From: Aliiroseovarius sp. S1123
Lineage (GTDB): Bacteria; Pseudomonadota; Alphaproteobacteria; Rhodobacterales; Rhodobacteraceae
Direction of reading: 5' to 3'
Assembly (NCBI RefSeq): GCF_023015885.1
Contig: NZ_JALKBE010000004.1
Span: 1 to 64,000, forward strand
Length of the DNA: 64,000 nucleotides
Shown piece after piece: positions 3,583 through 26,549 of this stretch. Every line of letters starts with the position of its first letter. Positions within the stretch are counted from its first letter, which is position 1. Both the position numbers and the translations under genes were made by a program. The notes beneath the pieces were generated by a model. The model was not told the DNA's origin. It was given only the letters and a program-made list of their open reading frames with translations, and made no database searches.

Positions 3583-3659
3583 TGGCGATCCCTGAAGGAC
3601 TCGAACCCTCAACCTGCTGATTAGAAGTCAGCTGCTCTATCCAGTTGAGCTAAGGGACC
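3583..3659 (-). tRNA. tRNA-Arg (anticodon TCT)
   Basis: The minus strand folds into a full cloverleaf of 77 bases including an encoded CCA. The acceptor GGTCCCT pairs with AGGGATC (one G-U), the anticodon stem GCTGA/TCAGC encloses the loop CTTCTAA with anticodon TCT, which reads AGA, and the T-loop is GGTTCGAGTCC. The discriminator base is G. Confidence 0.97.
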
Positions 3660-23320: not shown

Positions 23321-24247
23321 TTACTTCCCCAAGCACCAGCGCATCACGGCCTTCTGCGCGTGAAGCCGGTTCTCGGCTTCGTCGAAGATCACCGATTGCG
23401 GACCATCCATGACCGAGTTCGTGACTTCTTCTTCCCGGTGCGCGGGCAGGCAGTGCATGAACAGCGCGTCGGGTTTGGCGTGCGCCATCAGCTCGTCATT
23501 GATCTGATAGGGGCGCAGCAGGTTGTGGCGACGTTCACGAGCGGACGGCGCGTCGTGCATCGAGACCCACGTGTCCGCAACCAGAAGGTCGGCACCTTCC
23601 ACGGCTTTCACCGGATCGCGCACAATCTCGACATTCACGCCTTTGGCGCGCGCTTCTTCGACAAAACCCATTTCCGGATCCAGCGATTCCGGCCCGGTGA
23701 AGGTCAGGTCGAACCCGAACTGGCCCGCGGCATGCAGGAAAGACGCGCAGACATTGTTGCCGTCGCCGGCCCAGACCACTTTCTTACCCTCGATCGAGCC
23801 GCGATGTTCTTCATAGGTCAGGATGTCGGCCATGATCTGGCAGGGGTGCGAGCGGTTGGTCAGCCCGTTGATCACCGGCACGTCAGCGTATTCCGCCATC
23901 TCAAGCAGCGTCGCCTCTTCAAAGGTCCGGATCATGATCATGTCGACATAGCGCGACAGAACCTTCGCAGTATCCGCAACGGTTTCGCCGTGGCCCAGCT
24001 GCATTTCCGAGCCGGACAGAACCATGGTTTGCCCACCCATCTGGCGCACACCCACGTCAAAGCTGACGCGGGTCCGGGTCGAGGGCTTTTCAAAAATCAG
24101 CGCAACCATATGACCGTCGAGCGGCTTTTCGTCGTCCAATGCACCCTTGGGGCGACCTGCGCGCGCGGCTTTGATCCGGTGTGCTTCCGAGATGATGTTT
24201 TTCAGGTCGCTCGTATCGGTGGCGTTAATGTCAAGGAAATGTGTCAT
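23321..24247 (-). CDS. argF: Ornithine carbamoyltransferase
   Basis: 308 residues. Makes citrulline from ornithine and carbamoyl phosphate. The carbamoyl-phosphate motif STRT is at residues 56-59 ([12 protein letters not shown]), HPCQ follows near 133, and the ornithine-binding HCLPAHR lies near residue 270. Its start overlaps the argD stop (ATGA, 24244-24247), so it is translationally coupled to argD. carB at 31.3-34.6 kb supplies the carbamoyl phosphate. Confidence 0.97.
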
Positions 24248-25425
24248 GTGCTCTGGCCCTCCACGGCCTTGGCAGCGGTTTCAAGGCGGGTGACCGCCTG
24301 CGAGATGTCTTCGTCTTCGATGGTCAGTGCGGGCAGGATGCGCAGCACGTTGTCGCCCGCGGGCACGCACAGCAACTGCGCGTCATAGCATTTCGCCAGC
24401 ACGTCCATATTGGTCGCCTTGCATTTCAGGCCCAGCATCAAGCCCGACCCGCGCACTTCTTCGAATACAGCAGGGTGCTCGGCCACAAGGCCTTCCAGCT
24501 TCTGGCGGAACAGACCTGCCTTGCGGCTGACCTCGGCAAGGAACGCAGGATCGGCGACGATCTCGGTCACTTTCGAGCCGACCGCACAGGCCAGAGGGTT
24601 GCCGCCATAGGTGGATCCGTGGGTGCCAGCGACCATGCCGCTTGCCGCATCTTCGGTCGCCAAAACAGCGCCCAGCGGGAAGCCCCCGCCGATGCCTTTG
24701 GCAACCATCATGATGTCCGGCGTGACGCCCGAGAACTCGTGCGCGAACAGCTTACCGGTCCGGCCCATGCCGCACTGTACTTCGTCAAAGATCAACAAAG
24801 CGCCCGCATCGTCACAAGCGGCACGGATAGCTTTCAGCTCGTCATCCGGCACGGGGCGAATGCCGCCCTCGCCCTGTACGGGTTCGATGATCACGGCGGC
24901 CACGTCGCCCTCGGCCAGTTCATTGGTCAGACCATCAAGGTCACCGAACGGCAGATGCGTGAAGCCCGGCAGAAGCGGGCCGAAACCTGCGGTCAGCTTT
25001 TCGCCACCTGCAGCGGCAATGCCTGCGGACGACCGGCCATGGAACGAACCGTCAAAACCGATGATCCGCGCGCGCTCCTCGCCTTTGTCAGACCAGTACT
25101 TCCGCGCCATTTTCACGGCGAGTTCACAGGCTTCCGTGCCCGAGTTCGTAAAGAACACTGTGTCCGCAAAGGTCAGATCGACCAGCTGATCCGCCAGCCT
25201 CTGTTGCTGCGGGATCTTGTAAAGGTTCGACACATGCCAAAGCTTCGCACCCTGTTCGGCCAGAACCTGAACCAGCGCAGGATGGGCATGGCCCAGCGCA
25301 TTCACCGCGATGCCCGCGCCCAGATCCAAATATCGCTCGCCCCCATCCGTAACAAGCCAGCTGCCCTGACCGCGCTCGAAAGCAAGGTCTACACGGTTAT
25401 AGGTCGGCAGAAGCGACGGGATCAT
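24244..25425 (-). CDS. argD: Acetylornithine aminotransferase
   Basis: 393 residues. PLP-dependent class III aminotransferase of arginine synthesis, often also serving lysine synthesis as the succinyldiaminopimelate enzyme. The PLP region shows [15 protein letters not shown] (about 208-222) and the Schiff-base lysine in [11 protein letters not shown] (about 242). AAAGGAT lies seven bases before the ATG at 25425. argF follows with a four-base overlap. Between the start and about 25600 upstream lie a terminator-like hairpin and an arginine-rich leader frame, which suggests control by attenuation. Confidence 0.96.
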
Positions 25426-25440
25426 GGTCGTATCCTTTAC

Positions 25441-25476
25441 AAAAAAGAAGCCTTTGCGTGCCGGATGGCGGGCTTC
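25441..25476 (-). terminator. Terminator-like hairpin in the argDF leader (candidate attenuator)
   Basis: On the minus strand GAAGCC (25476-25471) pairs with GGCTTC (25452-25447), an inner GCC/GGC pair can form in the loop, and six T residues follow (25446-25441). It lies between the arginine-rich leader frame and the argD ribosome-binding site, so it cannot end any upstream gene and would block argD transcription when formed. The 6-bp outer stem is moderate in strength. Confidence 0.6.
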
Positions 25477-25546
25477 AAGTCAACATTTTCCAGAGGGTTT
25501 CTGAGGGGTTTGCGCAAACGGAGCGCAGGATCAAACGAACGGGACG

Positions 25547-25600
25547 TCAGGCGCGGGTGCGTCGGCGTCGGGTTTCAGCGATATGCAGGCGTTTGATCAT
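25547..25600 (-). CDS. Putative arginine-rich leader peptide of argDF
   Basis: A 17-codon frame on the minus strand, MIKRLHIAETRRRRTRA, ending in TGA. Six codons are Arg, using CGC and CGA, with four in a row. It ends about 70 bases before the terminator-like hairpin. A 9-bp perfect pairing joins its codons 2-4 region (25590-25598) to 25529-25537, and a 12-bp palindrome (25508-25519) can compete for the second strand. This is the layout of a ribosome-dependent attenuator sensing charged tRNA-Arg. Weak points: no Shine-Dalgarno before this ATG (a TTG at 25645 is an alternative start) and no clear anti-terminator reaching the last hairpin. Confidence 0.5.
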   Translation of the reverse strand: MIKRLHIAETRRRRTRA

Positions 25601-25673
25601 GGGGGCGGGATAGGGGATCGCACCCGTGCTGTCCAGCCTTTTCAAACCAGATACCTATGCGTAGGAGAGAAGG

Positions 25674-26549
25674 ATGGAAACGCGCAACGCTCCCCTCGCT
25701 GCCGTCGGCTTCATGCTGGTGGCCACCGTGTTCATCGCGGGCACGACGCTGATGGCGAAGCTGGCGGGGAAAGATCTGTTGGGCGATCCGCTGCACCCGG
25801 TCCAGATCACGCACGGACGGTTTACCTTTGCGTTTCTGGCGATTGGCAGCTTCGCGTTGTTTCGCCGGTTGCGCATCACGCGCCCGAACATGAAACTTCA
25901 TGCCGCGCGGTCTGCCGCCGGATTTGTGGGCGTGACCTTGATGTTTGCCGCCGCCACGCTGATCCCGTTGGCGGATGCCACTGCGATTTCGTTCCTGAAT
26001 CCGGTCTTCGCGATGCTGCTGGCCATCCCACTGCTGGGTGAACGTGTCGGCCCGTGGCGCTGGCTGTCTGTGGCCATGGCGTTGACGGGCGCGCTGATCC
26101 TGATCCGCCCGGGCGCCAGCAGCTTTGACCCTGCGGCGTTTCTAGCCCTCGGGGCGGCAGCGCTACTAGGGCTCGAGACCATCTTCATCAAACGGTTGGC
26201 CGGGCGCGAAGCGCCCTTGCAGATCCTTGTCATCAACAACGCCTTCGGTCTGACCATCGCCACGTGCGCGGTGCTGTTCGTGTGGCAAGCGCCCACGCCC
26301 GCGCAATGGGGCGTGCTGGCAGCGCTTGGCTTCATGATGGCCGCGGCGCAGGCGTGCTATGTGCAGGCGATCCGGCGCGCCGATGCCAGCTTTGTCGTGC
26401 CGTTCTCGTATGCAACACTGATCTTCGCCGCCCTCTATGACTTTGGCCTGTTTGGCGTGGCGCCCGGGTGGCTCAGCGCGCTTGGAGCGGGGATTATCGT
26501 GGCGGGTGGTGCCATTCTGGCGTGGCGCGAAGGACGACAGGCCAAGTAA
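25674..26549 (+). CDS. EamA-family (DMT) permease
   Basis: 291 residues with about ten membrane helices in two EamA repeats (residues about 8-140 and 150-285). GGAGAGAAGG sits just before the ATG. Proteins of this type export amino acids, nucleobases or related metabolites, and the substrate cannot be predicted here. It is divergent from argD, so export of an arginine-related metabolite could be imagined, without evidence. The segment FLNPVFAML in repeat one is typical of the family. Confidence 0.88.
   Translation: METRNAPLAAVGFMLVATVFIAGTTLMAKLAGKDLLGDPLHPVQITHGRFTFAFLAIGSFALFRRLRITRPNMKLHAARSAAGFVGVTLMFAAATLIPLADATAISFLNPVFAMLLAIPLLGERVGPWRWLSVAMALTGALILIRPGASSFDPAAFLALGAAALLGLETIFIKRLAGREAPLQILVINNAFGLTIATCAVLFVWQAPTPAQWGVLAALGFMMAAAQACYVQAIRRADASFVVPFSYATLIFAALYDFGLFGVAPGWLSALGAGIIVAGGAILAWREGRQAK

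Follow-up and report, generated by a model that had tools for sequence, protein, structure and literature searches.

Ribosome-mediated attenuators that respond to amino acids control the his, trp, leu, thr, phe and ilv operons, and these systems share a layout in which a short leader open reading frame (ORF) carrying consecutive codons for the end-product amino acid precedes the biosynthetic operon, and a hairpin with a U-rich tail lies before the first gene. The leader described here, upstream of argD in Rhodobacteraceae, has the same layout, but its end product is arginine and an antiterminator was looked for and not found. An arginine-synthesis gene that responds to arginine through an upstream peptide is known from fungi, where the arginine attenuator peptide is a conserved peptide that stalls ribosomes at high arginine, as opposed to a run of Arg codons at which they would stall at low arginine. 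In bacteria, the usual regulator of arginine synthesis is ArgR.

Several described bacterial leaders resemble the argD leader in part. In Sinorhizobium meliloti, also an alphaproteobacterium, the transcript of trpL, which encodes peTrpL, starts at the ATG of a 14-amino-acid leader ORF (PMC7298713), an arrangement that is predicted for the argD leader as well; as described there, trpL differs in carrying Trp codons in place of Arg codons and in having a terminator/antiterminator switch. The leader uORFC-8-2 comes from the same order, Rhodobacterales, and shares with the argD leader a tandem-codon ORF in the first stem and predicted attenuation, but its codons are for Cys, it precedes the tRNA synthetase gene cysS, and its consensus ends in a U run (PMC8632094). 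The argD leader has Arg codons before argD and is thus not a member of that group, which is defined by tandem Cys codons before cysS. Consecutive Arg codons that sense arginine shortage are described for orf34 (DUF2618) of Salmonella speF, but this leader controls ornithine decarboxylase rather than arginine synthesis, encodes a conserved 34-amino-acid peptide, has a Shine-Dalgarno sequence, lies far from the main gene and acts via Rho and RNase G (PMC6386406). Judged by their length (13-18 amino acids in 154 of 184), the absence of a conserved core and the argD context, the argD leaders are set apart from orf34/DUF2618. In addition, carA of Pseudomonas aeruginosa is described as having a leader peptide (PMC4997734), and the main text of a survey of premature terminators makes no mention of arginine or argD (PMC2965389). 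Among the matches listed in the open-access PMC literature, judged by titles and the beginnings of abstracts, we found none that describes a leader before argD in Rhodobacterales; such a description may exist in other papers.

Results

The argD-argF locus and its upstream region

The window, a 64,000-nucleotide stretch of the Aliiroseovarius sp. S1123 genome, contains argD and argF on the minus strand. The identities of both genes by NCBIfam and Pfam are secure, with profile matches exceeding the curated cut-offs. The features discussed below, in the order in which they would be transcribed, are as follows.

25607..25635, minus strand: predicted promoter P1, with -35 TGGACA at 25635-25630, a 17-nt spacer and -10 TATCCC at 25612-25607 (sequence and logo)
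25547..25600, minus strand: leader frame, predicted to be leaderless, encoding MIKRLHIAETRRRRTRA with six Arg codons (sequence and comparison)
25590..25598, minus strand: SL1 5' strand GATCAAACG, in leader codons 1-4 (sequence and swap test)
25529..25537, minus strand: SL1 3' strand CGTTTGATC, past the leader stop (sequence and swap test)
25511..25527, minus strand: SL2, predicted hairpin TGCGC..GCGCA (folding; weakly supported)
25484..25510, minus strand: linker from SL2 to TTGAC, its TTGAC-proximal part C-rich and G-poor in relatives
25458..25483, minus strand: conserved TTGAC-N16-GGCAC element, with TTGAC at 25483-25479
25441..25476, minus strand: SL3, candidate weak intrinsic terminator, with arms GAAGCC at 25476-25471 and GGCTTC at 25452-25447 and six T at 25446-25441 (sequence, folding and swap test)
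24244..25425, minus strand: argD, acetylornithine transaminase (NF002325, 590.9 bits)
23321..24247, minus strand: argF, ornithine carbamoyltransferase (TIGR00658, 375.9 bits), overlapping the argD end

An EamA-type transporter gene starts at 25674, upstream of P1, and is divergent. Downstream of the six-T run, AAAGGA is followed by the argD ATG at 25425, and across relatives a Shine-Dalgarno-like sequence precedes 161 of 165 argD starts. The gene next after argD was argF in 68 of the 74 loci examined. None of 4227 Rfam models matches 25380-25700 at E values up to 5. The argD upstream sequence of a same-genus genome (G003, locus L005) is identical to that of A. halocynthiae (L031).

A sequence-only reading of this DNA had proposed a possible arginine attenuator, beginning with a 17-codon minus-strand frame in which six codons are for Arg, four of them in a row. 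This frame is confirmed: the DNA ATGATCAAACGCCTGCATATCGCTGAAACCCGACGCCGACGCACCCGCGCCTGA, read from 25600 to 25547, encodes this peptide, and 121 nt separate its end from argD.

An Arg-codon leader is conserved upstream of argD in Rhodobacteraceae

To be scored as a leader, an ATG frame of 8-24 codons had to carry a run of at least two Arg within its last eight residues. Upstream regions of Rhodobacteraceae argD were drawn from two collections and came to 198 loci. Removing 7 whose upstream sequence was identical, 2 that had under 300 nt upstream and 19 additional congeners left 170. As argD was matched in 241 of 246 family genomes and loci were taken from the first part of a list of the better matches (28 new and 60 more, with one contig-edge locus skipped), less similar argD genes are under-sampled, and some genera may be represented twice. 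A run of at least two Arg was present in 163 of these 170 regions and a run of at least three in 133, compared to 5.0% and 0.5% of dinucleotide shuffles (n=3400) and to 12 and 0 of the 170 reverse complements. In the subset of whole genomes from different genera (n=96), the corresponding counts were 93 and 76. On the excess over shuffles, a chance origin of the leader frame was rejected, and the comparison across relatives establishes both the frame and its Arg run. The proposal of an Arg-codon leader ahead of argD-argF, for which an alignment of relatives had been suggested as a check, is therefore borne out across the sampled Rhodobacteraceae. The seven regions lacking a leader (L092, L094, L095, L104, L155, L159 and L187) count against a sensor function.

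The same test was applied to other alphaproteobacterial families, represented by the best 27 of 95 matching genomes. Here, 2 of 27 regions had a run of at least two Arg, neither of them with TA at the -10 place, and none had a run of at least three. A loose filter had given 3 of 17 and 8 of 27 outside Rhodobacteraceae (five genomes being in both sets), and the leader was rejected as a feature of these families on the strict test. Two other-family argD regions (L260 and L262) have upstream frames of greater length that carry RRRR or RRR close to their end; these fail the length test and are perhaps due to chance.

The leader peptides, examples of which are MIKRPNTAQCNRRRR, MDNRAPLFVRRRR, MTQGFAKTGLRRRR and MTHATRIRRA, vary outside the Arg run, while Arg itself is kept despite shifts in codons, run length and position. 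Since it is mainly the arginines that are kept while the rest drifts, the pattern fits codons that are counted rather than a peptide that folds, and the conserved run within a drifting peptide suggests sensing of arginine shortage. Some leaders, such as L057, L070, L076, L131 and L134, end in RRS or RRDI, with two consecutive Arg rather than RRRR, and may represent a weaker or different sensor.

Codon choice within the leaders differs from that in argD. CGU, CGC and CGA are decoded by one tRNA-Arg, and CGA is the slowest of them. The 757 Arg codons of the 165 non-congener leaders were 47% CGC, 41% CGA, 7.7% CGT and 2.6% CGG, compared to 55% CGC, 7.0% CGA, 11% CGT and 24.6% CGG among 1198 Arg codons of argD from 75 loci, so that the leader seems tuned to one tRNA. 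The sole tRNA gene detected in the window is a tRNA-Arg with anticodon TCT (3583-3659, minus strand), presumably not, by the decoding rules, the isoacceptor needed for the leader codons. The nucleotide string CGACGCCGACGC is common among leaders, and the Arg region pairs with bases past the stop in folding, so this string may have a role in RNA structure as well. Both observations would also fit an Arg run that is a side effect of an RNA structure element, or a peptide that acts as such, with arginine not being sensed at all; given that Arg is kept while the runs differ in codons, length and position, we consider this very improbable.

Transcription is predicted to start at the leader ATG

In the window, six bases separate TATCCC from the leader ATG. 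An ATG-aligned logo of 184 leaders, congeners included, displayed T at -35 (84%), T at -12 (58%), A at -11 (70%) and C at -1 (83%), and TA occurred at -14 to -10 in 149 of 165 leaders, compared to 10% at random offsets within leaders. For this logo, the choice of start was optimised over nested ATGs; a repeat restricted to the 101 of 165 leaders in which one ATG alone is possible gave the same result. A scan for E. coli-type consensus promoters listed none at P1. The comparison establishes the position of the predicted promoter, and because the spacing between P1 and the leader ATG is canonical, RNA synthesis is predicted to begin with the A of that codon (25600). A Shine-Dalgarno-like sequence precedes just 10 of 165 leaders. 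Its absence in the window had been listed as a weak point of the attenuator proposal; the observation is true, and is now explained by a leader that is predicted to be leaderless.

The leader start pairs with the region past its stop

The first reading had also noted a 9-bp perfect pairing and a competing 12-bp palindrome. The pairing, termed SL1, is confirmed, with GATCAAACG perfectly complementing CGTTTGATC. Structure tests covered the 155 non-congener leaders (of 165) that have TTGAC between -80 and -45. Running RNAalifold on MAFFT-aligned leader parts yielded no consensus structure because spacing varies, and we therefore compared native duplexes with duplexes whose arms had been exchanged between genomes, for 1194 window pairs in the 155 sequences. 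The strongest signal of all 1194 pairs (z -6.7) came from the leader start paired with positions 8-18 nt past the stop; overlapping windows came next, and SL1 stands out from a distribution with a standard deviation of 1.0 and an opposite extreme of +3.9. A coarser scan gave z -5.4 for SL1 and -2.7 for SL2, with an opposite extreme of +4.3. The longest Watson-Crick helix at SL1 averaged 5.31 bp in native pairs and 4.20 bp in swapped pairs, and helices of at least 7 bp were found in 29 of 155 native cases compared to about 6 swapped ones. These longer helices comprise 20 different strings, some nested, including GATCAAACG/CGTTTGATC, GTTCAAACG/CGTTTGAAC and GAACGGAA/TTCCGTTC, indicating that the pairing is kept in relatives by compensatory changes on both sides. 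Folding of the whole leader from the window sequence alone was not unusually stable (z -0.06); as single-sequence folding is at the level of shuffles, the case against chance rests on the comparison, and it is by comparison that SL1 is shown.

The palindrome GTTTGCGCAAAC is present at 25519-25508, while the hairpin predicted there, SL2, is TGCGC..GCGCA at 25527-25511 and is weakly supported, with a self-fold of -4.95 compared to -3.02 when shuffled.

SL3 and the means by which a stall might be relayed

The hairpin SL3 and its six-T tail had been proposed as the terminator of the attenuator. For the window alone, folding of the SL3 region gave z 0.45, and a terminator scan of 25000-26500, confined to loops of 3-8, returned none (shuffles averaging 2.0). 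Across relatives, the terminator-like score averaged 13.1 compared to 9.2 for shuffles, and at least three T were found in the six bases past SL3 in 62% of the 155 sequences, with 11% expected. The U-tract is strong in Aliiroseovarius, moderate elsewhere and poor in many relatives. In the swap test, SL3 only just stands out (z -4.0, opposite extreme +3.9), and in the coarser scan its z was -5.4 (opposite extreme +4.3). Pairs in fixed register, tested on 105 of the 155 sequences, were barely above those of swapped arms (inner 0.499 vs 0.486, outer 0.538 vs 0.506), and we therefore do not claim base-pair covariation in the detail of SL3. The role of SL3 as a terminator is thus supported, but more weakly than the leader itself: the hairpin and six T before the argD ribosome-binding site are present in the window, and a hairpin with a T-rich tail is kept among relatives, but it is weak. 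In other-family argD regions (L200/L252, L257, L256, L205 and L207), hairpins with T runs were seen by eye, either between the region of the TTGACA promoter and argD or immediately upstream of argD; they may represent another kind of terminator or attenuator.

In an attenuator of the his/trp type, a stall at the Arg codons would release a strand for pairing with the 5' arm of SL3, and this antiterminator would block the intrinsic terminator. The Arg-codon leader fits this scheme, as do the hairpin and T-rich tail, which exceed shuffles before argD and end in a clear six-T run in the window. However, the swap scan of 1194 window pairs in 155 sequences and the coarser scan revealed no covarying pairing that competes with SL3. 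We also refolded the 155 leaders, masking an assumed ribosome footprint over either the Arg codons or the stop; the SL3 5' arm paired with its 3' arm at 0.38 in the naked, Arg-stalled and at-stop states and at 0.33 with the start blocked. Given that no rival to SL3 covaries and that SL3 is unmoved by masking, a classical antiterminator is not supported, and with the U-tract weak in many relatives, we regard a his/trp-type switch as doubtful. The lack of a clear antiterminator, already conceded in the original proposal, therefore stands, and of the "arginine attenuator" the sensor, with its conserved Arg leader, is well supported, and the classical terminator/antiterminator switch is not. Masking further indicated that outer SL1 pairing was 0.17 naked, 0.20 Arg-stalled and 0.08 at the stop. 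The outer helix is thus kept during a stall on the Arg codons and declines with the ribosome at the stop, so that any SL1 switch might work in either direction, a point against the sensor reading. Masking also indicated that the inner pairing of Arg codons with bases past the stop was lost in both the Arg-stalled and at-stop states.

Termination could instead depend on Rho, which would load on a C-rich, G-poor stretch after fast translation of the leader and stop transcription near argD, unless prevented by a stalled ribosome. Folding and swap tests showed no switch at SL3, consistent with this scheme, and a combination of an upstream ORF with Rho-dependent attenuation has been proposed in Sinorhizobium meliloti (PMC12218461). 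At -13 to -8 before TTGAC, the linker consists of 48-61% C and 3-8% G; G remains at 3-8% over -16 to -8 and reaches 28% at -24. However, this C-rich stretch measures about 10-15 nt, compared to 70-90 nt for a usual rut site as given in the same source (PMC12218461), and a ribosome on the Arg codons would leave it uncovered, so that Rho, too, is a questionable candidate. A further alternative is that the leader acts on the stability of the mRNA or on translation of argD, and not on termination. The precedent is Salmonella speF, where arginine is sensed at Arg codons by way of RNA conformation and RNase G (PMC6386406), and the distance from the SL3 end to the argD start, about 20-25 nt in most regions, would be compatible with it. 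We nonetheless think control at this level unlikely, as the argD Shine-Dalgarno sequence, present in 161 of 165, is not strongly paired in folding and no covarying pairing with the argD start was detected.

A conserved TTGAC-N16-GGCAC element lies between leader and argD

TTGAC was found at -90 to -45 in 162 of 170 Rhodobacteraceae regions, and six of the seven regions without a leader keep it, not all with GCAC. TTGAC-N16-GGCAC is conserved as sequence and not as base pairs, and its GGCAC is unexplained by pairing. In other families (the best 27 of 95), TTGAC lay within -230 to -30 in 23 of 27 regions and was accompanied by a usual -10 at N16-18 in 19 of 27, GATACT in 7 of them, and it fell at -90 to -45 in 3 of 27. 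Because the other-family TTGAC is mostly further upstream, its shared descent with the Rhodobacteraceae TTGAC is something that we infer. In Rhodobacteraceae, a usual -10 accompanies TTGAC at that place in 1 of 170 regions and over -230 to -30 in 4 of 170, and GCA/CAC occupies the -10 place in 144 of the 162 TTGAC-bearing regions. Judged by these sequences, the element looks like an old argD -35 whose -10 was replaced by GCAC.

TTGAC-N16-GGCAC could act as a promoter that bypasses the leader, in which case argD would be driven mainly from this site and the leader and P1 would be minor. The near-constant presence of TTGAC, also in regions without a leader, and its role as the -35 of an ordinary promoter in most of the other-family regions speak for such an arrangement, but the near-absence of a canonical -10 in Rhodobacteraceae speaks against it, the conservation of the Arg leader would be left unexplained, and the motif is not common in the genome. 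We therefore consider it quite unlikely that this promoter prevails. As a general promoter type of the window's genome, TTGAC-N16-GGCAC was rejected, with 9 matches compared to 14 for the reversed control.

ArgR and other arginine genes

ArgR (TIGR01529) was detected in 0 of 61 Rhodobacteraceae genomes, in a search whose control found it in 9 of 14 known genomes. Many gammaproteobacterial groups are described as conserving ArgR, and other classes as lacking it (PMC5343134). Besides argD, the arginine genes checked for a leader were argG, argC and argJ. No Arg leader was present before argG (3 genomes), argC (4) or argJ (4, where the start is uncertain in places, as in L228). While the missing leaders at these genes count against a sensor function, they also suggest that the control point may be argD-argF.

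Discussion

Based on the data presented above, we consider it probable, at roughly 0.7, that the Arg-codon leader is a ribosome-mediated arginine sensor controlling argD-argF. RNA synthesis would begin at the leader ATG, with its A as the first base; a ribosome would load straight onto the 5' end of the leaderless RNA and translate the variable N-terminal part, followed by the CGA/CGC Arg run at or near the stop. With ample arginyl-tRNA, the ribosome would complete the leader and depart, after which RNA polymerase would tend to stop ahead of argD, at SL3 and its U-rich tail and/or through Rho on the C-rich linker. With scarce arginyl-tRNA, the ribosome would wait on the Arg codons and prevent the inner SL1 pairing from closing, while polymerase would continue into argD-argF. 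We infer the stalling, the termination, the direction of the response and the relay of the stall; options for this relay are termination at SL3 via timing or coupling, Rho acting on the C-rich linker, or control of stability.

A broader scenario, which we put forward tentatively, would join these elements. Rhodobacteraceae, in which ArgR was not found, may have rebuilt the control of arginine synthesis: the ordinary argD promoter known from other Alphaproteobacteria would have lost its -10, and a new upstream promoter that starts directly on the leaderless Arg leader would have replaced it. Arginyl-tRNA would then be sensed through pairing of the RNA 5' end with the region past the stop, in place of a classical antiterminator, and TTGAC-N16-GGCAC would be a second, family-specific control element.

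A family-wide Arg-codon leader offers a direct, testable answer to how arginine synthesis is controlled where ArgR is not found. If this reading is true, arginine would be added to the biosynthetic end products that are sensed by ribosomes on a leader, in a system with a leaderless start and no detectable antiterminator.
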